Shown piece by piece: positions 8,397-40,350 of a DNA stretch of 64,000 bases. Numbering within the stretch: position 1 is the stretch's first letter; every line of letters starts with the position of its first letter. This stretch comes from Asticcacaulis tiandongensis (GTDB taxonomy: Bacteria; Pseudomonadota; Alphaproteobacteria; Caulobacterales; Caulobacteraceae). Where the stretch lies: NCBI RefSeq assembly GCF_006475605.1, contig NZ_SSBC01000010.1, positions 620,001 through 684,000 of the forward strand, read 5' to 3'. The notes under the pieces were generated by a model that was given only the letters and a program-made list of their open reading frames with translations, was not told the DNA's origin and made no database searches. A program made the position numbers and the translations under genes.

Positions 8397-9539
8397 ATGA
8401 CGTCTGCCCCCCTGCCTGCCCGTTTGTGGCTTATGGGTGCCCTGCTTCTCAGCAGCTGCGCCACGCCGACACATCTTTCAGCCCCGGACATCAGCGGCTT
8501 TAATGACGCTGTGCATCACTGGCGCAATAAGCACGGGGATGGTTATGCACGTCTTCAGCCGGATAATTATGTCGCCATTGCGGACACGATTCTGCTCCTC
8601 CAGAGGGATAACGGCGGCTGGATCGAAAACCGCGACCCCTTAAGGATACTCAGCGAAGCCGAAATCCAGCAGGCGCTGGCTGAAAAAGCCGATCCTGACT
8701 TCAGCTTTGACAACCGCAACATCTATACGCAGGTCGAATATCTCTTTGCGGTTTTTGAACGCACACAGGACAATCGCTATCGTCAGGCCGCCCTCAAGGG
8801 CCTTGATCTGATTCTGACCCATCAGATCGACACCTGCGGTGGCTGGCCCCATACGGTGCCCGCCCGTCAATCCTATCACCCGATGATCACGCTGGCCGAT
8901 GAGGTCACTTCCGGTAACCTGACCCTGTTGCGCACCATCTCGCAACGTAAAGCCCCCTTCACCCATATCGACGAATCGCACCGCCAGCGCGCCGAAAACG
9001 CACTCCAAAAAGGCGAATCCTGCCTGTTACGCCTGCAAATCCGTCAAAATGGCCGCCTGACGGGATGGGCCGGACAATATGATCCTGTAACCCTATTGCC
9101 TGTTAAAGGCCGCAGCTTTGAACTGCCCGCCATAGTGACGCAGGAAACCGTCGAGGTCGTCCGCTATCTGATGCGCATCGACAATCCGTCACCGGAAATA
9201 CGTACCGCTATTATTGCCGCAGTTGAATGGATCGAGTCTTCAAAATTCAATGGCTTGCGTCTGGAAACCTACACTCTGGATGAAGCCATACGCTATGATT
9301 ATCACACCGCGACCACCGACCGCCGTCTGGTCAGCGACACGACCGCCCCGCCGCTGTGGGCACGTTTTTATGACCTGAATGACAATAGCGTTATCCTCGC
9401 CAATCGTGATGGCGTAAGGGTGGCAAACTATCAGGATATTCATCACGAACGGCGCACCGGCTATGCCTGGTATGGCGAATGGCCCGCCAAACTGCTTGAG
9501 GAAGACTATCCGGCCTGGTTGAAACGCAACGCGCCCTAA
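8397..9539 (+). CDS. Pectate lyase, polysaccharide lyase family 10, lipoprotein
   Basis: The protein has 380 residues. A signal peptide ends in a lipobox (LLSSC, Cys21), so it is predicted to be a lipoprotein displayed in the envelope. The rest matches PL10 pectate lyases, an alpha/alpha toroid enzyme that cleaves polygalacturonate by beta-elimination with calcium. Family blocks seen are LLLQRDNGGWIENRDP, YTQVEYLFAVFE, CGGWPHTVPARQSYHP, GWAGQYDPVTLLPVKGRSFE and PLWARFYDL...GYAWYG. Where many PL10 enzymes have a TFNDNA-like block this one reads ITLADEV, retaining the Asp. It stands alone, with no pectin locus nearby. The 3' end overlaps the convergent M61 gene by 4 bases. Confidence 0.87.
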   Translation: MTSAPLPARLWLMGALLLSSCATPTHLSAPDISGFNDAVHHWRNKHGDGYARLQPDNYVAIADTILLLQRDNGGWIENRDPLRILSEAEIQQALAEKADPDFSFDNRNIYTQVEYLFAVFERTQDNRYRQAALKGLDLILTHQIDTCGGWPHTVPARQSYHPMITLADEVTSGNLTLLRTISQRKAPFTHIDESHRQRAENALQKGESCLLRLQIRQNGRLTGWAGQYDPVTLLPVKGRSFELPAIVTQETVEVVRYLMRIDNPSPEIRTAIIAAVEWIESSKFNGLRLETYTLDEAIRYDYHTATTDRRLVSDTTAPPLWARFYDLNDNSVILANRDGVRVANYQDIHHERRTGYAWYGEWPAKLLEEDYPAWLKRNAP

Positions 9540-22439: not shown

Positions 22440-22521
22440 GCTGCGTAAATTGCACAGCTAAGCCTTAAGGTCAAAAAACGTATATGTTACCGTGCGCTTA
22501 GATCTTTAAGGCAAAATCATA

Positions 22522-22636
22522 CCTCCCCAATTCATTGGGGAGGGGGACCGCGCCGGTTTGCCGGCGGGGTGGTGGGGCATCTTACTGTCTCACCCTTCAT
22601 GGGGTGGGGGCAAAACCGGCCTGCCGTGGGTGGCTC
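22522..22636. repeat. Modular intergenic palindromic repeat, copy B plus a degenerate second unit
   Basis: Copy B (22522-22583) has a hairpin CCTCCCCAA-ttca-TTGGGGAGG, a GGGA linker, a second hairpin CGCCGG-tttg-CCGGCG and a tail GGTGGTGGGGCATCTT, the same module order as at 5966. A looser unit follows at 22592-22636 (CACCC-ttcat-GGGGTG, then an aaaccggcctgccg segment and TGGCTCTTTTTT). The stretch 22440-22697 holds no other feature I can support. Confidence 0.7.
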
Positions 22637-22697
22637 TTTTTTCGCATTTTCCCACCCGTTTTACCCCCGTTTTCGCATTTCACCCTATGATAATCCC

Positions 22698-23246
22698 ATG
22701 GCTACAAATCCCACACAGGAACAGATGACTCCCGAAGACCGCAGAGCGCGCCTGTGCGCCTTTGCCGACCGGATGCTCATCTGTGCCGAGAACATGGCCC
22801 CTCCCGAAGACATGCTTGAGCTTGAACGCGCCGTGCGCGTCGCGACCCTCATTGAACGCATCTATGCGCGTGTTCACCTTACCGAAGTCAGGGCACCCGC
22901 TCTCGCCGGTGAGCACCTGATGAACCGCCTTAAGCTTCAGGAAGACAAACACTATGTGCGCACCGTGCTCAAAAGAACGCCTGAACTGAAACCCGTTCGG
23001 GCCTTAAGCTCTGCGGCAGCGGTCCCTGCAAAAGCCCCCACAGCGGGCGAAATCTTTAATGATGACGATTTGCTGGCCCTGCATGCTCTACTGATGCCAT
23101 TTGCGCCTCAGGCAACGCCGTTACGTGCCCCCTCTTTTCAGACTCCTGAAAATCCGCTACGGCAGAGAGATAAGCCCGAAAAACGGGTGCTCTCAGGATT
23201 GCCGCCTTCATGTCAACCGCAGCCGCCCCCGCCTCGAAGCCCGTAA
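22698..23246 (+). CDS. Conserved-looking helical protein of unknown function
   Basis: The 182-residue soluble protein is rich in Ala, Arg, Leu and Pro. Residues about 10-90 form charged helices with possible coiled-coil character (MTPEDRRARLCAFADRM and LELERAVRVATLIERIYARV). The C-terminal third is Pro-rich and probably disordered. I do not recognise a family. The open frame extends upstream to 22569 through the repeat, but the ATG at 22698 gives the plausible N-terminus MATNPTQEQ. Its end overlaps the following MFS transporter start by 37 bases. Confidence 0.65.
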   Translation: MATNPTQEQMTPEDRRARLCAFADRMLICAENMAPPEDMLELERAVRVATLIERIYARVHLTEVRAPALAGEHLMNRLKLQEDKHYVRTVLKRTPELKPVRALSSAAAVPAKAPTAGEIFNDDDLLALHALLMPFAPQATPLRAPSFQTPENPLRQRDKPEKRVLSGLPPSCQPQPPPPRSP

Positions 23247-24490
23247 ATTCACCGGCTCAGGTGCTCCTCGCCAGCCTTATCGGCACGACTATCGAATTTT
23301 TCGATTTTTACGTTTATGCCACGGCGGCGGTGCTGGTTTTCCCCGCACTCTTTTTCCCCGACAGCGACCCGACCTCGGCGCTGCTGCAATCCTTTGCCAC
23401 CTTCTCGATTGCCTTCTTCGCGAGGCCCATCGGGGCCATAGTCTTCGGCCACTTTGGTGACCGTATCGGCCGTAAGACCACCCTGGTCGCGGCCCTTCTG
23501 ACCATGGGTATTTCGACCGTTATCATCGGTTGCCTGCCCTCTTATCACCAGATCGGCATTCTGGCCCCGCTGCTGCTGGCCGTCTGCCGCTTCGGTCAGG
23601 GCTTCGGCCTTGGCGGCGAATGGGGCGGAGCCGTACTGCTGGCCACCGAAAACGCCCCTCCGGGCAAACGGTCATGGTACGGTATGTTCCCCCAGCTTGG
23701 GGCCCCGATCGGCCTCCTGCTGTCGTCCGGTGCCTTCTGGATCCTGCTGCACTTCATGTCTCAGGACGACCTTTTGAGCTGGGGCTGGCGTGTACCATTC
23801 ATCGCCTCGATTGTCCTTATCGCCATCGGCCTCTGGGTGCGTTTGTCGATCACGGAAACCCCTGAGTTTCAAAAGGCTATCGACAAGGAAGAACGCGTAA
23901 AAGTCCCTCTGAAACACATCTTTGCCCGCCATAAACGCAGCCTTTTTCTCGGCACTTTCGTCGCTCTGGTCACCTTCGTTCTGTTCTATATCGGCAGTGC
24001 TTACCTGCTGTCCTATAACGTCAAAATCAGGGAAATGAACTTCATCAGTGCCTTGGAAATACAGATATTCGGCTCTATTGCCTTTGGTATTTTCATTCCG
24101 CTTTCGGCTCTTCTGGCGCAAAAATTCGGCCGTCGGGAAATCCTGATCGTTACAACGGTTCTGATCGGCGCCTTCTCCTTCATCCTGCCTTCCCTGATGG
24201 GCGGCAGCGACCTGAACGTCTTTATTTTCTCCATGTCTGCCATGGCTCTGATGGGAATGACTTACGCCCTGATCGGAACGGCACTTGCCGCCCCCTTCCC
24301 CGCCAATGTGCGCTACACAGGGGCCTCGCTGACCTTCAATTTCGCAGGTATTGTCGGTGCGTCTCTGGCCCCTTATGCCGCCACCTGGCTCCAGAGCAAC
24401 TTCGGTCTGGCCTATGTCGGTTATTATCTGTTGCTGGCTTCTGTCATCACGCTGATATGTATCTTCGCTTCAGGCAAGGACGAGGTCTGA
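23210..24490 (+). CDS. MFS transporter, metabolite:H+ symporter (ShiA/ProP-like) family
   Basis: The 426-residue protein has about twelve transmembrane segments. The MHS-family signatures are clear: GTTIEFFDFYVYATAA near residue 24, the loop FGHFGDRIGRKTTL near residue 82, and GFGLGGEWGGAVLLATENAP near residue 127. Relatives carry shikimate, proline/betaine, alpha-ketoglutarate or citrate with protons; the substrate here cannot be told. Translation may be coupled to the upstream hypothetical gene through a 37-base overlap. Confidence 0.93.
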   Translation: MSTAAAPASKPVNSPAQVLLASLIGTTIEFFDFYVYATAAVLVFPALFFPDSDPTSALLQSFATFSIAFFARPIGAIVFGHFGDRIGRKTTLVAALLTMGISTVIIGCLPSYHQIGILAPLLLAVCRFGQGFGLGGEWGGAVLLATENAPPGKRSWYGMFPQLGAPIGLLLSSGAFWILLHFMSQDDLLSWGWRVPFIASIVLIAIGLWVRLSITETPEFQKAIDKEERVKVPLKHIFARHKRSLFLGTFVALVTFVLFYIGSAYLLSYNVKIREMNFISALEIQIFGSIAFGIFIPLSALLAQKFGRREILIVTTVLIGAFSFILPSLMGGSDLNVFIFSMSAMALMGMTYALIGTALAAPFPANVRYTGASLTFNFAGIVGASLAPYAATWLQSNFGLAYVGYYLLLASVITLICIFASGKDEV

Positions 24491-24497
24491 TCTGATT

Positions 24498-24959
24498 TTG
24501 CGCCGGTTAAGCGATACAGAACGTAACGCCCTGCCGCAGGCCCTTATCCACGCCCTGCCCGTCGATCATATCCGACTGATTGATGCACCACATATCCTCT
24601 GCCGACTGGCCAGACTTATAAATAAAGACCCGCTGATCGTCGCCAGAGGCCGACAAATTTTCTGGCCGCGTCTGCCGGATGATCTGTCAAAACGACCGGA
24701 GCAACTGGCGCTTCTGGCCCATGAACTGACCCATGTCTGGCAATATGAAACCGGCATGACCCTTTGGAAATATCTGTGGCGTGAACGCGGTCGCTACCGC
24801 TACAGTCTTGTTGCCGATAAACCGTTTCGGGCCTATGGTTATGAACAGCAGGCCGCTATGGTCGAAGATATGGTGAGGCTGGGCCACGGCCTGCCGCCCC
24901 GATGGGCCGAAACGCCCGTCACACTATCGAAACTGACACTTGTCATACGGTTTTCCTGA
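24498..24959 (+). CDS. Small zincin-like protein with HExxH motif
   Basis: The 153-residue protein contains HELTHVWQYETG (HExxH, residues about 76-80), a metallopeptidase-like motif found in DUF4157-type and so-called Vgr-related proteins. No signal peptide is visible. The start is a TTG at 24498; no ATG occurs before the motif region. It lies between the MFS symporter (8 bases upstream) and nnrD (13 bases downstream), so it is probably translated from a shared transcript. Function is unknown; peptidase activity is only a possibility. Confidence 0.75.
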   Translation: MRRLSDTERNALPQALIHALPVDHIRLIDAPHILCRLARLINKDPLIVARGRQIFWPRLPDDLSKRPEQLALLAHELTHVWQYETGMTLWKYLWRERGRYRYSLVADKPFRAYGYEQQAAMVEDMVRLGHGLPPRWAETPVTLSKLTLVIRFS

Positions 24960-24971
24960 GGAAAGATACCC

Positions 24972-25805
24972 ATGACCGCCCTTCCCGTCGCCGGAGACAA
25001 TTCGCCCGATTACTGGGCTGAGCACTTTCCCTCCCCCGACCTGAAAGGTAACAAATACGACCGGGGTTACAGCATTATTCTCGGTGGCCCTCTGGCCTCC
25101 ACAGGTGCCGCGCGATTATCGGCACGCGCCGCCCTGAGGATCGGTTCCGGTCTCGTCAGCATAGCCTGCGATCCGTCTGCACTGATCGTTTATGCCACCG
25201 CACTTGAAGCCGTAATGACCAAGCCCATAAGGGATGTCGCCGAATTTTCCGGCCTGATCTCTGACCGGCGTGTGACCGCCGTCATGCTTGGCCCCGCCGC
25301 TGGCATCAATGAACGCACACGCGATCTCGTTATAACCACCCTTAAGGCGCAAAAGCCCGCTGTTCTTGATGCCGACGCCCTGACCGTTTTCAAGGACGAT
25401 CCGAAAACCCTGTTTGAAGCAATAAATTCTCCGGTCGTCCTGACACCGCATGATGGGGAATTTGAACGCCTTTTTGGCCAGATCAAAGACCGTAAACGCG
25501 CCGTTTGCGACGCCGCCGCCGTCAGCGGCGCCATCGTCCTCCTCAAAGGCCCCGAGACCCTGATTGCCCATCCTGACGGTCGTCTTGTGGCCAACCGACA
25601 CGCCCCGTCATGGCTGGCGACTGCCGGTTCCGGCGATGTGCTGGCCGGACTTATCACCGGCCTGATGGCACAAGGGATGAAAGCTTTTGATGCCGCCTGC
25701 GCTGCCGTCTGGTTCCACAGTGAGGCCGCGCGCCGCTTTGGCCCCGGCCTGATCGCCGAAGACCTGAGCGAACAGATACCGGCTATACTCAAAGATCGCC
25801 TTTAA
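24972..25805 (+). CDS. nnrD: ADP/ATP-dependent NAD(P)H-hydrate dehydratase (stand-alone NnrD)
   Basis: The 277-residue ribokinase-fold enzyme repairs hydrated NADH and NADPH (S-NAD(P)HX). Key blocks are [14 protein letters not shown] near the start, [16 protein letters not shown] in the middle and the anion-hole motif [16 protein letters not shown] near residue 220. In many bacteria this domain is fused behind the epimerase NnrE; here only the dehydratase is present, and no epimerase lies in the window. GAGGAAAG precedes the ATG. The stop overlaps the convergent msrA stop by 4 bases. Confidence 0.94.
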
Positions 25806-26440
25806 GCGACACAAGCAACGCCGGTGCCTTTAAGCCCGCAATAGCCATCAGGATTTTTCTCCAGATAGCCCTGATGATAACCCTCGGCATAATAGAACGG
25901 GAAACCGGCGTCGGGCGCATTTATTTCAGTGGTGATCGCCCCAAGCCCCTTGGCGGTAAGGGCTGCCTGATACTTATCCCTTGAAGCCAGTGCCGTCTTA
26001 TATTGTGCCTCTGTGGTAGCGAATATAGCCGACCGGTATTGCGTACCGACATCATTTCCCTGTCGATTGCCCTGAGTCGGATTGTGTTCCTCCCAGAACA
26101 GCTTAAGGAGCGCCTCGAACGAAAAGACCGCCGGATCATAGACCACCAGAACCCCTTCGGTATGTCCGGTCAGGCCGCTGCATACTTCACGATAGGCCGG
26201 ATTAGGCGTGTAGCCACCGATATAACCGACCGCCGTTGTATAAACGCCTGCCTGCCGCCAGAATAACCGCTCTGCCCCCCAGAAACAGCCCAGCGCCACG
26301 ACGACACTTTCCAGATGTTCCGGAAATGGCCCTTTTAGCGGGGTTTCAAGAACCACATGCTGGGTTTCGGTAGGTACGGCCTCCGGACGTCCGGCCAGAG
26401 CCTGATCAGCGGTAATGAGCACAGGCGTTTTACCAAACAT
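25802..26440 (-). CDS. msrA: Peptide-methionine (S)-S-oxide reductase MsrA
   Basis: The 212-residue enzyme reduces methionine-S-sulfoxide in oxidised proteins. The active-site motif [11 protein letters not shown] is near residue 51, with [21 protein letters not shown] downstream and C-terminal recycling cysteines in [15 protein letters not shown] took the ATG at 26440, preceded by GGAGACTCTT; the open frame extends 20 codons further but has no ribosome site there. No signal peptide is seen, so it is cytoplasmic. Confidence 0.95.
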
Positions 26441-26539
26441 AAGAGTCTCCTTTTGACACTTATCCTCAATATAAGCGCAGCTGCTGACCATACGAGTCAA
26501 AAAGATGCGTTTTTTCGTGATTTCAGGTCTTGCGCATTC

Positions 26540-28279
26540 TCAGAGGACAGCTATAACCGCCGCCTTCCCAAGGCATTGCCTTTGGTGACCAAATGCGGAC
26601 AGGTGGCGGAGTGGTCGATCGCGCACGCTTGGAAAGCGTGTGTACGTGCAAGCGTACCGAGGGTTCGAATCCCTCTCTGTCCGCCACTTCAGTCCCTGAG
26701 TGGGCACTGAGTTTACGCCACTTCCCGCCACAAGCGTCTGTAGCAGCCGGGACTTCGATCCCATGATGCGCACCTCGCCCTCAGCAACCTCGACGCGCTG
26801 CGCTAGCGCGCGAAGGTGGTCGCGGCGATAGCCGCCGCCTTCCAGCCGGATACGCTGGCGGGCGGTCGTGGCGAACTTGCGCAGCATCTGCGGCGTGACC
26901 GCCTTCTGCCCCGAGTTCTGGAGCATGGCCTGCGCCCGCTCTGCATCGGCCTTGGCATGATCGCGGATGGCCTTGAGGCCGTCGATACGATCTTTCAGCG
27001 CCGGGTCGTCCAGATCGGCCACGCCCGCCTCGATAGCGTCATAGAGCCGCTTGAGACGCAATTCCGATTCGGCTGAGCGCTTGTTCAACTCGGCGATATG
27101 CTCGCGGCGGCGCTCGGCGTGTTCTTCCCTGCGGTCGAGTGCTGCGGCAAGAACGGTTTCCAGCCGCCCGGGGTGTAGAAGCTGCTTTTCAAGGTGATTG
27201 ACGACCAGATCGTCCAGCTTCTCCATCGGCACGGCCATGCCCTCGCAGGCGGTCGACCCCTGCCGCGCCTTCATGGAGCAAGCATAATAGCGATAGAGCC
27301 CGCCCTTGCCGGTGCGAATGGTCATGGCACCGCCGCACTTGGCGCAATGGATCAGCCCCGTCAGCATGGTCGGGCCGCTGATGACGCGGGCGGGCATGAC
27401 CTTGGGATTGCGGGCCTTGAGCAGCTTCTGAACCGCGTCGAAGGTCTCGCGGTCGATGATCGGCGGCACGGGAACGGTGACAATCTCGCTGACCGGCTTC
27501 AATTCCTTGGTCTTGCTGCGTTTGTTGAACTCATGCTCGCCCATATAGGTGCGGCGTGTCAGGATGCGGTGAACCTGACCAATGCCCCAGCGTCCGCCGT
27601 CGCGGGTGAAGATGCGGCGGTTGTTGAGATAGGAGACGATGTTCTTGACGCCCATCTGGCCGGTGGTGCCGTCGCCTTCTAGCGCAAGGCGATAGATCAG
27701 CCGCACCGTGTCGGCGTGCAGCGGGTCGATTTCGAGCTTCTTCTTGGTCTTGGCTCCGCGCTGCTCGGCGGCGACGGTGCGATAGCCGATAGGGGGAAGC
27801 GAGCCGTTGCCTTGCCGCGCATTCTCTTTCAAAGCTCGCATGACGTGCTTGGCGTTTTCCTTGGACTGGTATTCATCGAACAGCGCCATGATCTGCCGCA
27901 TCATGACGTGCATCGGGTCGCCCCCCATCTCCTGCGTGATCGAAACCAGCTTCACGCCGTTCTTCGCCAGCTTGCGGACATAGAACTCAAGCTCGAAGTG
28001 ATCGCGGAAGAAGCGGCTGAACGAATGGACCACGACAACATCGAACGGCGCGGGTTTGGATGTGCCCGCCTCGATCATGCGCTGGAACTCGGGACGGCGG
28101 TCATTGGTCGCGGATGCGCCGGGCTCGATGAAGGTTTCGACCAGTTGCAGGCCGCGTGACTCGCAATAGGCTTCGCCCTGCCGCTTCTGGTCGGGGATCG
28201 ACACGTCATGCTCGGCCTGCCGCGCCGTTGAGACGCGCAGGTAAAGGGCGGCGCGTAGCGACACGGTGGAAGCGGTCAT
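26540..28279 (-). CDS. Large serine recombinase of an element inserted at tRNA-Ser
   Basis: The open frame codes 579 residues. The N-terminal resolvase domain (about 8-150) holds the catalytic serine in [19 protein letters not shown] and the conserved block [20 protein letters not shown]. Then come a recombinase domain (about 165-270), a zinc-ribbon ([14 protein letters not shown] ... [18 protein letters not shown]) and a coiled coil (about 390-450). The last roughly 48 codons run antisense through tRNA-Ser ([20 protein letters not shown] is tRNA sequence), so the natural C-terminus is changed by insertion, or the att site lies inside the gene's end. The ATG at 28279 has GGAGA upstream. Confidence 0.92.
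26597..26686 (+). tRNA. tRNA-Ser(GGA)
   Basis: A 90-nt class II tRNA with encoded CCA. The acceptor stem GGACAGG pairs with CTGTCC plus one G-U, the anticodon loop reads CTTGGAAAG (anticodon GGA), there is a long variable arm (GTGTACGTGCAAGCGTAC) and the T loop is GGGTTCGAATCCC. An integrative element borders its 3' end. Confidence 0.97.
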
Positions 28280-28321
28280 GGCGATGTCTCCTTTCAAACC
28301 CGGTCGTATCGAACGAGGCCG

Positions 28322-28534
28322 CTATTCAGCGGCCTCCCTGATCGTCCCGACAATCCATTCATTCAGGCTCTTGCCCGATGCTGCTGCGGCAATGACTGCT
28401 GCGGCGTGGTCGTCAGGGGTTAGGCGGACATTGAACTTGCCGGAGAACTTCCGGCGCGGCTCGATGCCCTTCTCCCGGCACATTTCGAGATAGACGGCCA
28501 ACGACTTGCGGCCTTCCTCGATCAGATCGTGGAC
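28322..28534 (-). pseudogene. hicB: HicB-type antitoxin, C-terminal stump
   Basis: About 70 codons remain, ending in FSGKFNVRLTPDDHAAAV and AASGKSLNEWIV, the ribbon-helix-helix DNA-binding end of HicB antitoxins; the preceding SLAVYLEMCREKGIEPRRK is also typical. Upstream (above 28534) the reading frame turns into the reverse complement of an hsdS fragment, so the N-terminal part is lost or altered. No HicA toxin gene is present. A 9-bp hairpin (GAGGCCGCT / AGCGGCCTC, 28314-28335) spans the stop codon. It lies just upstream of, and co-oriented with, the recombinase gene. Confidence 0.72.
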
Positions 28535-28762
28535 TACGTCAGTAGCGGTATGGGTAACCCGAAACTGATGAGCAACGTCATGTCGCAGATCAAGGTTCCC
28601 ATCCCGCCGCTCGAAGAACAGGAGCGCATCGTCTCCATACTCGACAAGTTCGACGCACTGGTGAACGATCTTTCCAGCGGCCTGCCTGCCGAGATCAGGG
28701 CGCGCCGCCAGCAATATGAGCATTATCGCGACCGCCTGCTGACCTTCCGCGAGGCGGCATGA
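28529..28762 (+). pseudogene. hsdS: Type I restriction specificity subunit HsdS, 3' stump
   Basis: About 77 codons match the C-terminal end of HsdS: SGMGNPKLMSNVMSQIKVP, PLEEQERIVSILDKFDAL (the conserved second-repeat helix) and QYEHYRDRLLTF. Both target-recognition domains are missing. The 5' break coincides with the HicB stump at about 28530, marking a recombination junction. The stop overlaps the hsdR start (ATGA), so the original hsdS-hsdR operon order is preserved. Confidence 0.82.
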
Positions 28763-31700
28763 AGGAAGCGCCGTCACCCTCCCGTTATGACGTCATCGCG
28801 CTGTCGGCCGAAAGCACAGTTGTTTCGGAGTATCTGCCCGATCCTTCCTCGCCCCACGAAAGCGGCTATCAATCGGAAAACGAGCTGGAAAGGGCCTTCA
28901 TCCGGCAATTGCAGGCTCAGGCCTATGAATACTTGCCAGTCACGTCAGAGGCTGGACTGGTCGCCAATCTGCGCCGCCAACTGGAAAAGCTGAACAAGGT
29001 CACGCTGTCGGATGCGGAATGGGAGCGGTTTTTTTCCACCTGTATCGCCAGCACCAATGACGGCATCATCGAGAAAACCGCGCGCATTCAGGAAGCCCAT
29101 GTGCAGGTGTTGAAGCGCGATGATGGCACCTCAAAGAACATCTACCTGATCGACAAGGCCAACATCCACAACAACAGCGTTCAGGTCCTCAACCAGTATG
29201 AAATAGAGGGCGCACGGGCCAATCGGTATGATGTTACGGTGCTGGTGAACGGCCTGCCGATGGTGCACATCGAATTGAAGCGCCGGGGCGTTGATATTCG
29301 TGAGGCTTTCAACCAGATCAATCGCTACAGCCGAGACAGCTTCTGGTCTGGGTCTGGCTGTTCGAATATGTCCAATTGTTCGTCATCAGCAATGGTACGC
29401 TGACCAAATATTACAGCAACACCGTGCGTGACGGGCATCTGGCGGAGCAACGCGGCAAAAGAAGCCGCCAGAGAAACTCCAACAGCTTTGCTTTCACCAG
29501 CTGGTGGGCCGATGCGAAGAACCAGCCCATTACCGATCTGGTCGGCTTCACCAAAACCTTCTTTGCCAAGCATACGCTGCTGAACATCCTGACGCGCTAC
29601 TGCGTGTTCGATGTGGACCGGAAATTGCTGGTAATGCGTCCCTACCAGATCGTGGCCGCAGAGGGGATATTGCTCCGCATCGGCACAGCCCCCAATCACC
29701 GGCAACTGGGCACTTTGGCGGCAGGCGGCTATGTCTGGCATACGACAGGCAGCGGCAAGACCCTGACCAGCTTCAAGGCCGCGCAACTGGCACGCGCGCT
29801 ACCCGCAATCGATAAGGTGCTGTTCGTCGTGGATCGCAAGGATCTCGACTATCAGACCATGCGGGAATACGAACGATTCGAGAAGGGCGCGGCCAATTCA
29901 AACACCTCGACCGCCGTGCTGCAACGACAGTTGGAAGACCCCAACGCCCGCATCATCATCACGACGATCCAGAAGCTCAGCCGCTTCGTTGCCCGAAACA
30001 AAAAGCACCCCGTCTACGATGCGCATGTCGTGGTCATTTTTGATGAATGCCACCGCAGCCAGTTCGGCGACATGCACACGGAGATCACCCGATCCTTCAA
30101 GCGCTATCACTTGTTCGGCTTCACCGGCACGCCGATCTTTGCCGAAAACTCCGGTACAGGCGGTAATCCGCGCCTGCGAACGACGCAACAGGCATTCGGT
30201 GACAAGCTGCATACCTATACCATCGTCGATGCCATCAACGACAGGAATGTGCTGCCGTTCCGCATCGACTACATCAATACCATCAAGACTGCGCCGAACG
30301 TGCGCGACAAGCAGGTATCGGCCATCGATACTGAGCGGGCGCTGCTTGCGCCTGAGCGTATCACCCAGGTCACCAATTATATCCGCGAGCATTTCGACCA
30401 GAAGACGAAACGCAGCGCCAGCTACCGGCACGGCGGAAAACGCCTGAGCGGCTTTAATTCCATCTTTGCCACAGCGTCCATCGACGCGGCCAAACGCTAT
30501 TACACGGAATTCTCTAACCAGCAGAAAGAAATGCCTCTCGCTCAGCGGCTGAAGATCGGCCTGATCTACAGCTTCGCTGCCAACGAGGACGAGGCGGACG
30601 GTCTGTTGAGCGAGGAAGAGTTCGAGACTGAAGGACTGGATCAGGGGTCACGCGATTTTCTCGACGCCGCCATCCGCGACTATAACGCCCAGTTCGGCAC
30701 CAGCTACGATACCTCCGCCGACAATTTCCAGAACTACTACAAGGATTTGTCGCAGCGGTTGAAGAACCGCGAGCTTGATCTCGTGATCGTGGTCAACATG
30801 TTCCTGACCGGCTTTGATGCCACCACGCTTAACACGCTCTGGGTGGATAAGAACCTGCGCGCGCACGGGTTGATCCAAGCCTATTCGCGCACCAACCGCA
30901 TTCTTAATTCAGTTAAGACCTACGGCAACATTGTCTCCTTCCGCGATATGGAGCAGGCGACCAATGATGCGCTGGCGCTGTTCGGCAACAAGGACGCCAA
31001 GGGCATCGTTCTGCTCAAACCCTATGCCGATTACTACGCAGAATATGAAAAGAAGATCGCCGAACTGGTGAGGCTGTTCCCCTTAGGAGCCCCAATCGTC
31101 GGCGAGACTGCGCAGAAGTCGTTCATCAAGCTGTTCGGATCGATCCTGCGGCTGAAGAATATTCTGACGGCATTCGACGATTTTGCTGGCAACGAAATTC
31201 TCAGCGAACGCGACTTCCAAGACTATCAAAGCCTCTATCTGAATCTGCACGCTCAGTTTCGCAGCGTGTCGGACGCCGAGAAGGAAACAATCAACGACGA
31301 TGTGGTGTTTGAGATCGAGCTGATCAAACAGGTCGAAATCAACGTCGATTACATCTTGATGCTCGTCGAGCGGTACATTGGAGCCAAAGGGACAGGCGAG
31401 GATAAGCAAATCCGCGCAACTATCGAGCGCGCAATCAACTCCAGTCCGTCCCTGCGCAACAAGAGAGACCTCATCGAGCAATTCGTCGATTCCGTCTCCG
31501 CAAAGGCAAAGGTCGATGCACAATGGCAGGCCTTTATGGCAGCGAAGAAGGTCGAGGAACTGGATCGCATAATCGCAGATGAAAATCTCAATGCAGAAGC
31601 CACCCGCAGCTTCATCGACAAGGCCTTCCGCGATGGCAGCGTTCCCACCACTGGCACTACAATCACCAAAATCCTGCCGCCCGTGTCGAGATTTTCAAAG

Positions 31701-31781
31701 AGCAACGGCCATGCCACCAAGAAGCAGACGGTACTCGACAAACTGGCCGCCTTCTTCGAACGATATTTTGGGCTGACATGA
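28759..31781 (+). pseudogene. hsdR: Type I restriction endonuclease HsdR with a one-base frameshift
   Basis: Two overlapping frames make one HsdR. The first (28759-29403) carries the nuclease domain with RYDVTVLVNGLPMVHIELKR (Asp...Glu-x-Lys). The second (open by 29376, ending 31781) carries the motor: Walker A TTGSGKTL, DECHRS box, FTGTPIF and later SF2 motifs. At 29358-29359 the first frame reads GSGC while the family expects GSGLFEYVQLFVISNG; adding one C there restores a protein of about 1007 residues, normal HsdR length. Either a true pseudogenising deletion or an assembly error. Without hsdM or an intact hsdS the system cannot restrict anyway. Confidence 0.88.
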
Positions 31782-32749
31782 ACGAGACAACGGAAACCAC
31801 AGCGCCTGCCGATCAGGTTCCTGACTATCAGAGTCTGATGCTGCCAGTATTGCGCGCAGCTGAAGAAGGCGAGATTCGGATCGGCGATCTCATCGTGAAA
31901 CTGGCGAGTATCCTTGGCTTGAGCGAAGCCGCACGGACCGTGCTGCTCGCTTCGGGACGGCAAACCGTTTTCGCCAACCGAGTGCATTGGGCAAAGACCT
32001 ATCTTGCGAAGGCAGGGCTTGTTGAAGCTACGCGGCGCGGTCACTTCCGTATCACCGCACGCGGCGAAGAGGTGCTGGCGACGGCACCTGATCGGATTGA
32101 TAATCGCTTTCTCGCCCGCTTTGATGAGTTTCGTGCCTTCACCGACCGGGGGATATCCCCTGTCACGGAGGCACCTGATCGGGTCGAGATAGTTGCTGAT
32201 GCGACAGAAGCGACGCCTGACGAAATCATGCGCGCCGCTCATCGTCGGATCGAGGCTGCGCTGGCCGAAGATTTGCTCGACCGCGTGCGCGCTGCGCCAC
32301 CGGATTTTTTCGAGCGGCTGATCGTCAATCTGCTGCTTGCCATGGGCTATGGTGGCTCAGCCGTCGAGGCTGGGCGCGCCCTTGGTCGAAGCGGCGACGA
32401 TGGTGTCGATGGCGTAATCGATCAGGACGAGTTGGGGCTTGATCGTGTTTACATTCAGGCCAAGCGTTATGCGGCGGGCAACAGCGTAAGCTCAGGTGCG
32501 ATACGCGACTTCTTTGGCAGTCTTGATCGACACAAAGCTGCCAAAGGGCTGTTCGTCACTACATCCTCCTTCACCGCTAGCGCCCGGGACACAGCCGAAT
32601 ATCTGAGCAAACGCATCGTGTTGATCGATGGAGGGCAACTGACCCGATTAATGATCCGACACAACGTAGGCTGCCGGATCGAGGAAATTTACACGTCAAG
32701 AAGGTCGACGAGGACTTCTTCGAATAGGGGAAAAATGTTGCGGGTTTGA
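31778..32749 (+). CDS. mrr: Mrr-family restriction endonuclease, C-terminal codons frameshifted
   Basis: The 323-residue protein has an N-terminal winged-helix Mrr_N domain (about 15-100) and a C-terminal Mrr_cat nuclease domain (about 180-300) with DGVDGVIDQDELGLDRVYIQAKRY, the Asp...Gln-x-Lys active site. Mrr enzymes cut modified (methylated) DNA. The last 17 residues (from TSRRSTRTSS) do not fit the family. One C added between 32695 and 32696 would give the usual ending LKKVDEDFFE with a stop at 32725-32727. The catalytic core is whole, so activity may survive. It overlaps hsdR by 4 bases (ATGA). Confidence 0.85.
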   Translation: MNETTETTAPADQVPDYQSLMLPVLRAAEEGEIRIGDLIVKLASILGLSEAARTVLLASGRQTVFANRVHWAKTYLAKAGLVEATRRGHFRITARGEEVLATAPDRIDNRFLARFDEFRAFTDRGISPVTEAPDRVEIVADATEATPDEIMRAAHRRIEAALAEDLLDRVRAAPPDFFERLIVNLLLAMGYGGSAVEAGRALGRSGDDGVDGVIDQDELGLDRVYIQAKRYAAGNSVSSGAIRDFFGSLDRHKAAKGLFVTTSSFTASARDTAEYLSKRIVLIDGGQLTRLMIRHNVGCRIEEIYTSRRSTRTSSNRGKMLRV

Positions 32750-32768
32750 TCGTAGAAATGGGGGAGGC

Positions 32769-33216
32769 ATGGTTATCAGAAAAGTGAACGAAGGCCTCGG
32801 GTTTGTTAGACTTATTTTAGTCTGGTCCAGCCTGAGCCCAGTTTTCCTGCTCTGGTCAATCCGGGGCGTCGATGCTGTTGACGACACCATTTGGGTGCCG
32901 GTGTGCTTATTCCTGTTCGTCTTGCCTACGGCGATTCTATATTTTATTTTCCATCGCGCTCGGACAAGTGAAAACGTCAAGACAATAGATGTGGTGAGCT
33001 CTCGCGACCAGAGACTATATGAATCTTATATTCGCAATTTGGGGGTACAAGATTTATACGGTTGAAGCAAAAATCGGTACCAAGGAGCGAGACAGGGAGA
33101 GGCCTCGGCTAGTGACCTTTGCTGTTATATCACGGCGGCATTACCTGCCCGAAGGGGAGGCACTGACAGGCTATAGGTTGGGTGGAAACGTTCTGGTGGA
33201 TAAAGACGATGATTGA
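32769..33216 (+). pseudogene. kwaA: KwaA-like membrane subunit of a Kiwa defence system, internally deleted
   Basis: The first frame (32769-33065) codes two transmembrane segments (about residues 10-33 and 40-63) and then VKTIDVVSSRDQR, after which it runs out. A second frame, entering at about 33016, codes YMNLIFAIWGYKIYTVEAK and a C-terminal soluble part ending in YRLGGNVLVDKDDD (stop 33214-33216). This order fits KwaA, a four-helix membrane protein with a short cytosolic tail, but the middle helices are missing and the frame is broken. I recognise it by the GYxxYTVE-like segment and the following kwaB-like gene; no alignment was run. Confidence 0.6.
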
Positions 33217-33902
33217 TCAGGAGTTCAATTTTTCAAAACATAGCGTCGGTGAATTTTGGTGTGGCCCTCAGAAGCAGCGGGGATATGCATTTCATACCAA
33301 CCGATGGTGCTACCAAGGAAGCGTTGAAGGGGACCCTGAGGACAACACGGGCTATTTTTTACGGGCTACCTACGGATTGGGAGTTGCATGATATATCGGA
33401 AGACTATGGGGATCGAAGGAGAGTTTATGCGCCGCGCACCAGTGAGTTTATGAGTGAGCTGTCGGCGGTTTATGATGCGGGGGCACTTAGCGATCTCACC
33501 AACATTCACGACCATGCAGGCGACGTAGATTTTTATTTTTCTGAGTTCAGGGACGATCAGAATCGGCGTGTGGTCGGAATTCGAAAAGCTACCAAACTCA
33601 AGGGTACGCTAAATGCCCGGAATAGGTTAATGCGGCTCATCGATGATACTCTTGTGCTAATTCAAGAAGATGTATTGCACTTGGATAGGGAATTCGATGT
33701 CATCGTCACAGATGCGAATGTCTTTATTCTGAATCCTCGCCAAGCCGAACAGGTGGCGAGGATGTGGAGCATGTTGCTGCGACAGCCACCGTTCCAGTTT
33801 GGAGATGTCACTTTTAAAATGGTCAGGCCTGCATTCCAAGGTTCCGGTTCATCTTCCTTTGGCGCGATCGGAACCTGTAGTCGAATGAAGTCTGCACGTT
33901 GA
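33209..33902 (+). pseudogene. kwaB: KwaB-like (DUF4868) subunit of a Kiwa defence system, frameshifted and damaged at 3' end
   Basis: The likely start ATG 33209 overlaps kwaA by 8 bases. After MIDQEFNF the frame shifts: removing one T from the T5 run at 33228-33232 joins it to QNIASVNFGVALRSSGD in the long frame, which continues to 33902. The DUF4868 core is visible: RRVVGIRKATKLKGTL and EDVLHLDREFDVIVTDANVF followed by ILNPRQAEQVA. After that the sequence loses family character. In frame, past the TGA at 33900, it continues to 34025 and ends in EVEEQPDMFNDE. KwaB binds DNA and, with membrane KwaA, blocks phage replication. Confidence 0.62.
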
Positions 33903-34237
33903 ATAGGAAAAAGTGGAGTTTCGCTAAAACCAATACCCCGGGATGATCGTGCATTAGACGCTATTTTGGGCACATTCACTCCTATTGAAGTGGAGGAACA
34001 ACCAGATATGTTCAATGATGAATAGTATCTCCTGAACTTTTAAATCATGGCTCATAAACATATCAACTACTTGCCTGATTGACCTGCCTATGGCAGAGGC
34101 ATCGGCATTCGCTCTGGACCCGGTGAAATTCCGGGTGGCTCTTCCGGCCGCCGATCCGCCGGACACTCAGATAAACGCATCATCCGTAAACCGGCTCGCG
34201 CTCCGTGGCCCGATGATGTCCTTTATTGCGTGATATA
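33903..34237. other. Right edge of island and leader of SulP gene
   Basis: From 33903 to 34025 an in-frame remnant continues after the kwaB-frame stop. From about 34070 base composition becomes G+C richer, with a small hairpin ACCCGG / CCGGGT (about 34118-34136), up to the SulP start at 34238. The island's right boundary probably lies between 34025 and 34090, but I find no tRNA-Ser fragment or direct repeat to fix it. Small open frames on both strands here are not convincing genes. Confidence 0.4.
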
Positions 34238-35722
34238 ATGATCTCCTCAGAAACAATTCGCCGTAACTGGTTTTCCAATATCCGTGCTGATCTGCTGGCC
34301 GGTATCGTCGTGGCTCTGGCTCTCATCCCTGAGGCCATCGGCTTTTCCATTATCGCAGGCGTTGACCCGCGCGTCGGGCTTTATGCCTCGGTGGTTATTG
34401 CTATCGTTATATCCTTCACCGGCGGGCGTCCGGCAATGATTTCGGCAGCAACGGCGGCCACGGCTGTGCTGTTTGGGGCGCTTGTGCGCGAGCATGGGCT
34501 TCAGTACCTGCTGGCCGCCACTATTCTGGCTGGCATCATACAGATTGCCGCTGGCTGGCTGCGTGTCGGATATGTCATGCGCTTTGTGTCCCGTTCGGTC
34601 ATGACCGGCTTCGTCAATGCGCTGGCCATCCTGATCTTCATGGCGCAATTACCTGAGTTGATCGGCGTGACATGGGAAACCTATGTGCTGATCGCCGCCG
34701 GATTGGCAATCATCTATCTGTTCCCACGCCTGACCAAAGCCGTGCCCTCGCCTCTGGTTTGCATCATTGTTCTGACCGGCCTCACCCTGGCGTTCGGCAT
34801 CGACATCCGTACCGTCAGTGATCTTGGGGAATTGCCGAATGCACTGCCTGTGCTGCTGTTCCCTGACATCCCGCTTAATCTGGAAACGCTCCGGATCATT
34901 CTGCCGACCTCAATTGCTGTCGCCGCTGTCGGGCTTCTGGAAAGCCTGCTGACCGCCTCTATTGTCGATCAGATGACCGATACCGGCAGCGATAAAAACC
35001 GTGAAAGCATCGGTCAGGGTATCGCCAACATCGCCAGCGGCTTCTTTGGCGGCATGGCCGGTTGTGCTATGATCGGCCAGTCTGTCATCAATGTTAAGTC
35101 TGGCGGGCGCACGCGGCTTTCGACCCTGACAGCGGGCGTGATGCTTCTGTTTTTATTGATGGTTCTGGGGGAAATGGTAGGCCTTATTCCCATGCCCGCG
35201 CTTGTAGCCATTATGATCATGGTCTCAGTCGGCACCTTTAGCTGGTCGTCACTGACCGACCTGAGGCATCATCCGCGACGCTCAAGCCTTGTTATGCTGG
35301 CGACGGTTCTGACGGTGATCGGGACGCATAATCTGGCGCTTGGGGTTGGGGTTGGCGTACTCTTGTCGGGCATATTCTTTGCCTGGAAAGTCGCGCAGAT
35401 TCTCCGTGTCACCTCAACACTTTCGGATGATGAAAAAGAACGTCATTACCGGATCGAAGGCCAGATATTCTTCGCATCAGCCGAAGATTTCATCAATGGC
35501 TTCAATTTCACCGAGCCTCTTACCAAGGTGACGATCGATGTCAGTCAGGCCCATATATGGGATCTGTCCGGTGTCAATGCCATCGACAGGGCGGTACTTA
35601 AATTCCGTCAGGCAGGTGCCGAAGTCGAGGTAATAGGCCTGAATGACGCCAGCGCCACGATTATGGACAGGTTCGCTGAGCATAACCGGCCGGATGCGAT
35701 CAGGAAGGTGCTGGGCCACTGA
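34238..35722 (+). CDS. SulP/SLC26-family anion transporter with STAS domain
   Basis: The 494-residue protein has about twelve to fourteen hydrophobic segments (about 15-395) and a C-terminal STAS domain (about 410-490). The SulP landmarks are [36 protein letters not shown] near the start and [35 protein letters not shown] near residue 270. The STAS block [20 protein letters not shown] aligns with the signature. Substrate may be sulfate, bicarbonate or another anion; it is not linked to carbonic anhydrase or sulfate-assimilation genes. The ATG at 34238 is used; a TTG 12 bases upstream is less likely. Confidence 0.93.
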
Positions 35723-35821
35723 GGCGGCAAGCTCACGCCTCACTTGCCCCCCCCTGGTGGCGCGTCAGAGCATATCCCGTGGGCAATGTTGATAATATCT
35801 ATTTTTGAAAATTAAATTGTA

Positions 35822-35897
35822 TGGTGGGCGATGACGGGATCGAACCGCCGACCTACTCGGTGTAAACGAGCCGCTCTCCCAGCTGAGCTAATCGCCC
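35822..35897 (-). tRNA. tRNA-Val(TAC)
   Basis: A 76-nt tRNA with encoded CCA. On the minus strand it begins GGGCGATTAGCTCAGCTGG, the anticodon arm reads CTCGTTTACACCGAG (anticodon TAC), the T arm is GCGGTTCGATCCCGT and the acceptor closes with ATCGCCCACCA. Confidence 0.97.
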
Positions 35898-35937
35898 CCA
35901 TGACAGGGTCCCTTATTTAAAAGGGTCTGGAAAGTAG

Positions 35938-35969
35938 TTCCGAGGCGAGGAAATGCCAAGCCTCGGAAT
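35938..35969. other. Inverted repeat between tRNA-Val and hup
   Basis: A perfect 9-bp inverted repeat (TTCCGAGGC / GCCTCGGAA) with a 14-base loop. It lies downstream of hup and upstream of tRNA-Val on the minus strand. It lacks a T run, so it may be a processing or regulatory hairpin and not a classical terminator. Confidence 0.5.
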
Positions 35970-36045
35970 ATAAGTCAAGCCTTTCTGACACGAAATCGTC
36001 AAAGGGCCTGTAAAACCTGTTAGCTAATGCAGCTAAGGCCCGAAC

Positions 36046-36324
36046 TTAGCCGTTCAGAGCGTTTTTCAGGCCTTCACCAACGCGGAAGCGTGCGGTGACG
36101 CTGGCCGGACGGGCAACGGTTTCACCGGTGCGCGGATTACGGGCCGTGCCGGCTTCGCGCTTAACGGCCAGGAAGGTACCAAAACCCACCAGACGCACTT
36201 CTTCACCCTTTTTCAGGGCATCCACAACACTGTCGGTGAAGGCGTCAACGGCCTTCTTGGCTTGTTCTTTGGTCAGACCGGCCTGTTCGGCAATGGCTGC
36301 AACGAGTTCAGCTTTTGTCGTCAT
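36046..36324 (-). CDS. hup: HU family DNA-binding protein
   Basis: The 92-residue nucleoid protein shows the complete HU sequence pattern: MTTKAELVAAIAEQAGLTKEQAKKAVDAF for the helical dimerisation part, then VRLVGFGTFLAVKREAGTARNPRTGETV, where the conserved RNPRTGE beta arm inserts in the DNA minor groove. I used the ATG at 36324, as the 14 extra upstream residues do not fit. Position downstream of lon on the same strand is conserved in alphaproteobacteria. A candidate promoter lies at 36416-36445. Confidence 0.97.
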   Translation of the reverse strand: MTTKAELVAAIAEQAGLTKEQAKKAVDAFTDSVVDALKKGEEVRLVGFGTFLAVKREAGTARNPRTGETVARPASVTARFRVGEGLKNALNG

Positions 36325-36415
36325 ATTCTCTCTCCCAGCCCGTCGCAGCGGGCAATATGTTGGCAACGCCCCAAGGCGCTTCGAGCGATTCCGAGTCGCC
36401 GCACAGGGGAAACAG

Positions 36416-36445
36416 ATACTGACAACAAAAAAACTGTCGCGTCAA
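36416..36445 (-). promoter_or_regulatory. Candidate hup promoter
   Basis: On the minus strand TTGACG (36445-36440) is separated by 18 bases from CAGTAT (36421-36416), about 90 bases upstream of the hup start. The -35 element is close to the housekeeping consensus; the -10 is weak. Confidence 0.35.
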
Positions 36446-36496
36446 AAGCCAAATCATACTTTTTGCACTGCAAACTCAGTTTTTTTAAGGGTTTAT

Positions 36497-36540
36497 AAAA
36501 AAAAGAGCAAAATCCAGAGATCAAATCCCTGAATCTTGCC
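36497..36540 (-). terminator. Rho-independent terminator of lon
   Basis: On the minus strand a 14-bp stem (36539-36526 with 36520-36507, three G-U pairs, five-base loop) is followed by a short linker and eight T (36504-36497). It separates lon from hup. Confidence 0.85.
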
Positions 36541-36596
36541 CTTCTGTATCAATCCGGCACACGGATTTTTTATAAATGAATTGGCATCCGTTGCGC

Positions 36597-38984
36597 TTAA
36601 TGCGCGGTACGGCTGTCCTTTTCCTCAATAGCGGCCTGAGGCGGTATCACCGGCTCCACCCAGTCCACAGCTTCCAGTTCTTCGGTCAGGGCGTGCTTAA
36701 GCACCTCCTCGACATGTTTCACCGGAATGATCTCAAGGCCTGCCTTCACATTTTCCGGCAGATCGGTCAGATCCTTTTCATTCTCATGTGGGATCAGAAC
36801 CGTTTTGATGCCGGAGCGCAGCGCCGCCAGCAGCTTTTCCTTTAAACCACCAATGGCCAGCACACGACCGCGCAGGGTGATCTCACCGGTCATGGCGATA
36901 TCCTTGCGCACCGGAATACCGGTCAGCACCGATACCATGGCCGTCACCATAGCTACACCGGCAGACGGGCCATCCTTAGGCGTTGCCCCTTCCGGCACGT
37001 GGACGTGAACGTCCGTGCGTTCAAAGACCGGCGGCAGGATGCCGAATTTCGGTGCCAGCGCCCGCACATAGGAATTGGCTGCCGAAACGGACTCTTTCAT
37101 GACCTCTTTAAGATTACCCGTGACCTTCATATTGCCCTTGCCGGGCATCTTGATGGCTTCGATGGTCAGAATATCGCCACCGAACTCTGTCCAGGCCAGA
37201 CCGGTGACAATACCGACCTGATCGACCTCATCGGTTTCACCATAGTGATACTTCTTCACGCCGGCATATTTCGCCAGACGCGCGTCATCGATGGTGATCG
37301 ACCTCACCTTTTCCTTAGCCAGATCACGAATGGTCTTCCGCGCCAGATTGCCCAATTCCCGCTCAAGCGAACGCACACCGGCTTCACGCGTATAGTAACG
37401 TATCAGATCGCGAATAGCCGCTTCCGGCACGATCCATTCCTGTTCGCTCAGGCCGTGATCCTTGGCCAGCACCGGCAGAATGTGGCGCTTGGCAATCTCG
37501 ACCTTCTCGTCTTCGGTATAGCCCGAGATACGGATGATCTCCATACGGTCAAGCAGCGGCTGCGGCATATTCAGGCTGTTAGCCGTTGTGACAAACATGA
37601 TCTTCGACAGGTCATAATCGACCTCAAGATAATGGTCGTTGAAGGTCGAATTCTGCGCCGGATCAAGCACCTCAAGCAGGGCCGAGGCCGGATCACCGCG
37701 CCAGTCGGCCCCCATCTTGTCAATTTCATCCAGCAGGAAGAAGGCATTGGTCGATTTGACCTTCTTCATATTCTGAATGATCTTGCCGGGCATCGAGCCG
37801 ATATAGGTACGACGGTGACCACGGATTTCCGATTCGTCACGCACCCCGCCTAAGGAAATGCGCACGAATTCACGCGCCGTCGCCTTGGCAATCGACTTAC
37901 CCAGCGAGGTCTTACCGACCCCCGGAGGCCCCACCAGACACAGGATCGGCCCCTTGAGCGTACCCATGCGCGCCTGTACCGCCAGATGCTCAAGGATACG
38001 CGCCTTGACCTTCTCAAGGCCATAGTGATCGGCATCAAGAATATCCTCGGCCTTATCCAGCTGGATCGGCTTCGGCTTGGTTACCCCCCAGGGAATAGCC
38101 AGCAACCAGTCGAGATAGTTGCGCACCACAGTCGATTCCGCCGACATCGGCGACATGTTCCGGAGCTTGTTTAGCTCTGACATGGCCTTGGCGCGGGCCT
38201 CTTTCGACAGCTTGGTCGCCTTGATCTTCTTTTCAAGCTCAAGGATTTCATCCTTGGTGTCGTCCTGCTCACCCAATTCGCGCTGAATGGCTTTCATCTG
38301 CTCATTCAGGTAATATTCGCGTTGGGTCTTTTCCATCTGACGCTTGACGCGTGAGCGGATTTTCTTCTCGACCTGAAGGACGGAAATCTCGCCTTCCATC
38401 AGGGCATAGATTTTCTCAAGCCGCTTGGAAACCGACAGTTCCTCAAGCAAGGCCTGCTTTTCAGCAATCTTGACCACCAGATGCGCGGCAATGGAGTCGG
38501 CGAGAATTTCGGCCTCAGACACCTCTGCCAGGGCCTGAAGCGCTTCAGGCGGGATTTTCTTGTTCAGCTTGATATAGTTGTCGAACTGCTCAGTGACGGC
38601 ACGCACCAACGCTTCTTCGTCAGGCCCCGCCGTATGCGCGGCCTCAAGCTGAACAGCCTCAGCTTCGTAATATTCCTTACGCTCAGTGAAGCGTTGAACC
38701 TTGGCGCGCGTCTTGCCCTCAACGAGCACCTTTACAGTGCCATCCGGCAGTTTCAGAAGCTGCAAGACATTGGCCAGCACGCCGATATCATAGATGGCAT
38801 CGCCCGCCGGATCGTCATCATCCGAGTTTTTCTGCGTCACCAGAAGAATTTGCTTATCGCCCTTCATGACCTCATCAAGGGCCTGAACCGACTTCTCACG
38901 CCCAACAAACAAAGGCACGACCATGTGCGGAAACACCACAATATCCCTTAAAGGCAATACGGGTATGGTCAGGACATCAAACAT
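36597..38984 (-). CDS. lon: ATP-dependent protease Lon
   Basis: The 795-residue AAA+ serine protease degrades damaged and regulatory proteins in the cytoplasm; in Caulobacter its substrates include DnaA, CcrM and SciP. Domains are the N-terminal substrate-binding LON domain (about 5-200), coiled coil (about 200-300), AAA+ with Walker [14 protein letters not shown] (about residue 350) and Walker B FLLDEIDK, and the C-terminal protease with the Ser674-Lys717 dyad in PKDGPSAGV and GGLKEKLL. Length is normal. It has its own terminator and an RpoH-type promoter about 100 bases upstream, which fits heat-shock control. Confidence 0.98.
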
Positions 38985-39082
38985 TCATACGCTCCAAAGG
39001 GCGGGTATCAAACGATCACCTTACGCCCATTTTTTTCAGGTTCCTACCTACCTTAGACGATTCCTCGGCTGAACCTGTAATG

Positions 39083-39111
39083 AATGTGGGATAAATTATT
39101 ACAGTTTCAAG
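39083..39111 (-). promoter_or_regulatory. RpoH (sigma-32) heat-shock promoter of lon
   Basis: On the minus strand CTTGAAA (39111-39105) is followed after 14 bases by CCCACATT (39090-39083). This matches the alphaproteobacterial RpoH consensus of CTTGAAA and a C-rich CCCCAT-type -10. It lies about 100 bases upstream of the lon start codon, with no other gene between. Confidence 0.82.
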
Positions 39112-39202
39112 GCAGGCAGGGTCGCGCTCAAGCAGCGTAGCGGTAGCGCAACTCAAAAGTCCCTGCACCCAATTGCCCCGAGGTGTGTGGCAATGTCCAT
39201 AA

Positions 39203-40306
39203 TCAGAACAGGCGCATCTGCCGGTCACCTCCGCGGAATGCCATGATATTCAGATCACGGCTTAATCGCCCCAGACCATGCTTTTTGACCGCAAGGTGAA
39301 ACCTCTGGTGAATCAGTTCCGCATAAACACCCTCGCCCGACATGCGGCTGCCAAAATTCGCGTCATTCAACTTACCATCACGGCACTGCCGGATCAGGTT
39401 CAGCACCTTATTACGCCGGTCTGGAAAATTATGCGTCAGCCATTCGTCGAACAGGATTTTCACCTCATACGGCAGACGAATGAGATTATAGCCCGCCCGC
39501 ACCGCTCCGGCCTCAGCCGCTGACCTGACCAGCGCCTCGATCTCATGGCAGGTCAGCCCCGGAATGACCGGCCCGATCATCATACCTGTCGGAATACCGG
39601 CACGGCTCAAGGCGGCAATCGTATCAAACCGCCTTTGAGGGGTGGCCGCACGAGGTTCCATAATGCGCGCCAGATGCCGATCGAGCGTCGTAATCGACAG
39701 GGTTGCCGTGACTAACTTTTCAGCGGCCATCGGCCCCAGAATATCAATATCGCGCTGAATGAGCGCCGATTTGGTAATCAGATGCACAGGATGGCGAAAT
39801 TCATACAGCACCTCCAACAACCGGCGCGTCAGACCTTCAGTGCGTTCCGTCGGCTGATAGGCGTCTGTGTTAATCCCCAGCATAAGCGGCGCCGGTTTGT
39901 AACGAGGATGGGCTAATTCCTTACGCAATAACGCCGGCGCATCCGGCTTGCAAAATATCCGCGTCTCGAAATCAATACCCGGCGACAGATCAAGGTAAGC
40001 ATGGCTCGGTCGCGCGAAACAATAGATGCAGCCATGCTCGCACCCTTTGTAGGGATTGATTGAACGGTCAAACCCGATATCCGGTGAGTCGTTAAATGTG
40101 ATGATCTTCCGCGCCGTATCCACACCGAGAACGGTCTTCAGTTTCGGTCGCTCTTCCGTTTCCCAGCCGTCGTCGGTGTCATAGCGATCCGGCGCATCAA
40201 ATCGCCCGCTCAGGCGATTAGACACCGATCCCCTGCCCTTGCGCTTCTGATCTGGCAGGGCGTTCTCATCCGTAATCGGTTCGGTTCTGAGCGTCGGAAT
40301 AACCAT
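39203..40306 (-). CDS. PA0069-family radical SAM protein (SplB-like)
   Basis: The 367-residue protein carries the radical SAM cluster motif in GCEHGCIYCFARP (CxxxCxxC) near residue 90 and the surrounding SINPYKGCEHGC typical of the PA0069 group, annotated as related to spore photoproduct lyase. The substrate is not known. The C-terminal half has DRHLARIMEPRAATPQRR and the GYNLIRLPYEV block. I used the ATG at 40306; a GTG seven codons earlier is possible. It is transcribed in the same direction as lon but separated by the lon promoter. Confidence 0.9.
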   Translation of the reverse strand: MVIPTLRTEPITDENALPDQKRKGRGSVSNRLSGRFDAPDRYDTDDGWETEERPKLKTVLGVDTARKIITFNDSPDIGFDRSINPYKGCEHGCIYCFARPSHAYLDLSPGIDFETRIFCKPDAPALLRKELAHPRYKPAPLMLGINTDAYQPTERTEGLTRRLLEVLYEFRHPVHLITKSALIQRDIDILGPMAAEKLVTATLSITTLDRHLARIMEPRAATPQRRFDTIAALSRAGIPTGMMIGPVIPGLTCHEIEALVRSAAEAGAVRAGYNLIRLPYEVKILFDEWLTHNFPDRRNKVLNLIRQCRDGKLNDANFGSRMSGEGVYAELIHQRFHLAVKKHGLGRLSRDLNIMAFRGGDRQMRLF

Positions 40307-40350
40307 ATCCCGACGATACGCCAACACCAGAACAAATCAAGAACAATTTA

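Follow-up and report, generated by a model that had tools for sequence, protein, structure and literature searches.

In working Kiwa systems KwaA is described as an inner-membrane protein which forms tetramers with bound KwaB dimers, senses the infecting phage at the site of injection and bears KwaB; the latter binds phage DNA as it enters, without cutting it, and blocks its replication and late transcription (PMC12904381). Kiwa is entered under DNA degradation in a table of PMC12322248. According to an AlphaFold analysis, the N-terminal domain of KwaB is alpha/beta and its C-terminal domain all-helical; the same paper reports activity of KwaB against phage in the absence of KwaA, KwaA being considered necessary for control (PMC11514479). 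The solved Kiwa chains (9mrg/9mrx, 9o0i) are distant in sequence from the subfamily studied here, and are found by profiles of this subfamily with E 1.1e-5 (KwaA) and E 4.2e-5 (KwaB).

Intact pairs of this subfamily are present as plasmid copies in Rhizobium etli 8C-3 and Rhizobium sp. NLR16a (tblastn), with KwaB bodies 57% and 56% identical to that of our locus. A scan of genome contigs with an alignment revealed 28 further loci, including Rhizobium herbae and Devosia submarina, while a scan with a single protein found no relatives. The 28 loci together with L002 and L003 make up the 30 related loci referred to below; they do not represent 30 independent lineages, as for example the KwaB proteins of L002 and L046 are 97% alike. 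No KwaB relatives were found in viral contigs.

The window analysed in this paper is the whole stretch of 64,000 nucleotides from Asticcacaulis tiandongensis (contig NZ_SSBC01000010.1). Within it, positions 32769-33799 very probably represent a kwaAB pair which was inactivated recently and gives no Kiwa defence. A sequence-only reading had placed an eroded Kiwa locus downstream of hsdR-mrr at 32769-34025. This holds as far as 33799, while 33800-34025 is not recognisable as Kiwa, and the decay is wider than had been stated, since it includes hsdS, hsdR, mrr and a hicB remnant as well (Table 1).

Table 1. Features from the tRNA-Ser gene to the sul1 RNA, in positions of the window.
Feature	Position	Strand	Basis
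tRNA-Ser (GGA), probable left edge of island	26597..26686	+	ARAGORN
Large serine recombinase, open frame running into tRNA-Ser	26540..28297	-	Pfam Resolvase, Recombinase, Zn_ribbon_recom
hicB, C-terminal remnant	28325..28507	-	Pfam HicB, E 2.1e-22
hsdS end piece, residues 322-393 of a 395-residue HsdS	28541..28756	+	tblastn with intact HsdS
hsdR, N part	28759..29358	+	HSDR_N; residues 1-202 of intact HsdR, 70% identity
hsdR, C part, other frame	29358..31781	+	residues 203-1013 of intact HsdR, 70% identity
mrr (type IV restriction), frame altered close to the C-terminus	31778..32727	+	Mrr_N, Mrr_cat
kwaA N half, residues 1-82	32769..33014	+	frame 1; PADLOC and intact relatives
kwaA C half, residue 128 to end, with stop	33016..33216	+	PADLOC and intact relatives
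kwaB start MIDQEFNF	33209..33232	+	other frame than kwaB body
kwaB body, N-terminal two thirds	33231..33764	+	PADLOC, intact relatives, constraint analysis
Last 11 recognisable kwaB residues	33767..33799	+	another frame; relatives
Filler separating the broken kwaB from the sul1 RNA	33800..34112		no peptide or Pfam match
sul1 RNA (RF03058)	34113..34168	+	RNA family match, 73.8 bits

The assignment of the two adjacent frames to KwaA and KwaB, originally made from the letters, is borne out by PADLOC and by intact relatives with the same gene order. Both the membrane and the cytosolic fragment match the KwaA profile PDLC00218, positions 4-81 being covered by 32769-33062 (E 1.3e-17) and positions 128-184 by 33019-33213 (E 1.1e-6). 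A DUF4868 (KwaB) match for 33213-33900 had been set beforehand as a test, as had the KwaA match of the two fragments, and was likewise found: 33213-33899 matches positions 7-189 of 300 in PDLC00228 (E 2.9e-24). These PADLOC matches, like those obtained by tblastn, are far beyond chance. Pfam did not match KwaA, NCBIfam gave no Kiwa match in the window, and the Pfam KwaB profile (PF16162) scored 24.0 bits, under its cut-off of 26.3, which is not surprising where the protein is incomplete.

The window shares with Kiwa both genes, their order, their strand and an 8-base overlap: the kwaB ATG lies at 33209-33211, and the overlap includes the kwaA stop. The length of this overlap is as first read, and the same overlap of KwaA with the MIDQEF start is present in L002 and L003, although the L002 record has its annotated KwaB start four codons earlier.

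In place of a complete KwaA open frame of about 190 residues the window has two frames, and the jump between them falls exactly at VSSRDQR, which is followed by YMNLIFAIWGYKIY, where an internal deletion had been suspected. The C half (33016-33213, stop at 33214-33216) is read in frame 2. Compared with the intact R. etli KwaA, residues 1-82 are 68% and residues 128-191 are 71% identical, but the two halves lie 1 base apart in the window and 135 bases apart in R. etli. The 45 middle residues (83-127) are absent, and the frame differs after the gap. The lost segment, whose counterpart in chain G of 9o0i is at about residues 92-135, includes two hydrophobic segments according to the alignment read by eye, and it is kept in a single open frame in all 30 related loci.

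KwaB is damaged at both ends. Its body is without a stop to 33764, but the family start MIDQEF is not in frame with it, so the frame change proposed after MIDQEFNF was confirmed against intact relatives. At the other end, family character is indeed lost from this frame after ILNPRQAEQVA, as had been noticed; however, 11 more residues can be recognised in a second frame. Homology stops at 33799, leaving about 106 of 307 residues missing, and a complete KwaB with C-terminal domain was not found in the window. Among 28 KwaB loci, 26 align to the C-terminus and the remaining two stop at contig ends. Given the domain layout of PMC11514479, the loss of the C-terminal third would mean that it is the helical domain which is mostly missing. 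A 229-residue open frame still spans the body, its TTG overlapping the KwaA stop, and might yield a truncated product.

Intact homologues in L002, L003 and L047 have the two genes in the same order, and comparison with intact relatives bears out the internal loss and the changes of frame. The KwaB body is 56-74% identical to intact alphaproteobacterial copies, and the closest copy found is that of Devosia submarina (L047), with KwaA halves 67% and 64% identical and a KwaB body 74% identical over 178 residues. Unlike the window, L047 has an intact Kiwa. Its mrr shares the strand of kwaA and lies 2.2 kb upstream, and the window likewise has mrr upstream; in L047, however, three other frames stand between the two genes (7258-9318), of which one has the same orientation and two are opposed. 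Type I subunits were not found in the DNA examined around the L047 kwaAB.

Between the KwaB bodies of the window and of Devosia there are 40 differing bases at codon position 1, 23 at position 2 and 99 at position 3. Over 128 columns in which L002 and L003 agree, nine differ only in the window and nine only in Devosia. Where columns are conserved to at least 90% in the other copies, the window deviates in one of 24 and Devosia in four of 25; with a threshold of 80% the numbers are 18 of 50 and 26 of 57, which are high because most of the reference set belongs to a distant branch. The KwaB body looks as if its evolution had, up to a recent time, been largely that of a functional gene, although the changes are few and the power of the comparison is low. 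Because it still looks constrained, the damage to kwaAB is probably recent.

As a control for the frames, proteins of the window were compared with the corresponding regions of seven relatives, using the best segment only. In all seven the alignment spans 775-798 columns for Lon (795 residues) and 91-92 columns for HupB (92 residues), so both genes, which lie to the right of kwaAB, are without frame break. ClpX (420 residues) aligned over 397-419 columns in three relatives, over 250 and 255 in two, whose stretches began inside the gene, and had no match in the last two; the gene at 39203-40327 (374 residues) aligned over 370 columns in two, 318 and 108 in two, and none in three. These two genes are partly uninformative.

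The neighbours of kwaAB on the left are broken too. Besides the single frame change of hsdR, between residues 202 and 203, the mrr tail LHVKKVDEDFFE is read in another frame, while the Devosia Mrr, compared by eye, ends RLDEDFFFDE. An HsdM query was unmatched in the window, and none of the six N6-methylase matches of the genome lies inside it. At 28325-28541 the hicB remnant on the minus strand meets the hsdS end piece on the plus strand, both being truncated near the junction. A left boundary of the island at tRNA-Ser is weakly suggested by the other genomes of the genus: the best matches end within 5 bases of the tRNA-Ser 3' end in all 24, and in 13 of these they consist of the tRNA alone. 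The right end was not located, since the window holds no further tRNA-Ser copy of 12 or more bases. Queries with genes of the island and its left flank (kwaA not among them) were unmatched in the 20 kb lon-hupB-tRNA-Val regions of all seven relatives. Scans for promoters (one site, minus strand, shuffle mean 2.1) and terminator-like sites (one, shuffle mean 1.2) gave nothing above chance.

On the right, the filler at 33800-34112, taken as two peptides, had no match on plasmids; at the level of DNA, the 20 plasmid records listed out of 146 match only from 34091 on, in the stretch that contains the sul1 RNA. It matched nothing in Pfam, only itself in its own genome, and in the 72 loci compared produced only two matches at chance level (E 0.17 and 0.60). 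Of the 24 other genomes of the genus one matches this region, at 34083-34165 only. The frame just downstream of the sul1 RNA is presumably SulP-like.

Counting the genome of A. tiandongensis itself, Kiwa matches occur in 1 of 25 genomes of the genus, 1 of 398 sampled genomes of the order (0 of 397 others) and 4 of 385 sampled genomes of the class, identity being 28-31% in the three that are not its own; a second KwaA or KwaB copy was not found in its own genome. In 1 kb windows the G+C content over kwaAB is 0.48-0.51, whereas the remaining ones listed from 22000 to 40000 have 0.53-0.63. From these matches and the lower G+C we infer that kwaAB was gained by horizontal transfer.

The best reading of these data is a horizontally gained restriction/Kiwa operon, now apparently dead, near a recombinase at tRNA-Ser. 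The kwaAB pair stood last in a same-strand defence run hsdS-hsdR-mrr-kwaA-kwaB near the serine recombinase. From KwaA the 45 central residues are missing and the frame beyond them has changed, and KwaB has neither an in-frame family start nor its C-terminal third. Since neither subunit can be whole, the KwaA/KwaB complex would not be built, and the locus should give no Kiwa defence.

Could the lesions be errors of assembly or sequencing in a working Kiwa operon? The assembly is in 22 contigs, and comparison with relatives shows one simple change of frame apiece in the kwaB start, in hsdR and in mrr, as such errors could produce. However, 45 KwaA codons and the C-terminal third of KwaB are gone, which is hard to explain in this way, stumps of hsdS and hicB are present, and core genes nearby are in a single frame; we hold an artefact to be very unlikely. 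More improbable still, in our view, is a natural short Kiwa, in which the KwaA pieces and a 229-residue KwaB N-domain are expressed, e.g. as decoy or regulator. Such a form would agree with the open and conserved 229-codon frame whose TTG overlaps the KwaA stop, and some anti-phage effect has been reported for KwaB alone (PMC11514479). The promoter scan has no bearing here, because the genes would be read from upstream. But none of the 30 related loci has a KwaA without the segment in question, and among the 26 loci that do not break off where a contig stops, none has a KwaB without the C-terminal part. We keep to an inactivated kwaAB pair, and regard the locus as a Kiwa pseudogene locus and not as a Kiwa system.

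The position of kwaAB behind restriction genes recurs in the subfamily. Profiles iterated three times (E 1e-5) were used to search up to 10 kb on each side of the 30 related loci for hsd genes, and at least one candidate was matched in 24 of them, counted over loci that are partly kin and not independent. In 14 of 30 loci, again partly kin, the end of an hsdS frame lies no more than about 20 bases from where kwaA starts (L048, L050, L052, L054-L060, L069-L072), and in nine of these 14 hsdS-kwaAB is followed by hsdR on the same strand (L050, L052, L056-L060, L070, L072). Two loci have kwaAB between hsdM and hsdS (L049, L062), and L073 shows the order M-S-R with kwaAB about 0.3 kb on, which is close to that of the window. 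The hsd genes are on the other strand in L002, L046, L064 and L065, and were not found by the profiles in L003, L047, L051, L053, L066 and L067, some of which are on short contigs. Other systems are also described from such places: DarTG2 sits between hsdS and hsdR (PMC12255303), and a type I cluster harbours TgvAB (PMC11411939). It is conceivable, though we consider it rather doubtful, that this Kiwa subfamily is a standard module of type I operons, cooperating with them, and that the window shows a joint operon decaying as a unit. The titles and abstract openings among the matches listed contain no statement on Kiwa inside type I operons; as the literature was covered only in part, we claim no novelty for this link.

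In itself the locus is ordinary, a decayed copy of an already known system. It would be an example of a defence operon that is lost through several lesions at a time when the rest of its sequence is still fresh. It also cautions against taking a frame of 229 residues with a match to KwaB for a working KwaB. The part worth a proper survey is the linkage of Kiwa with type I restriction.
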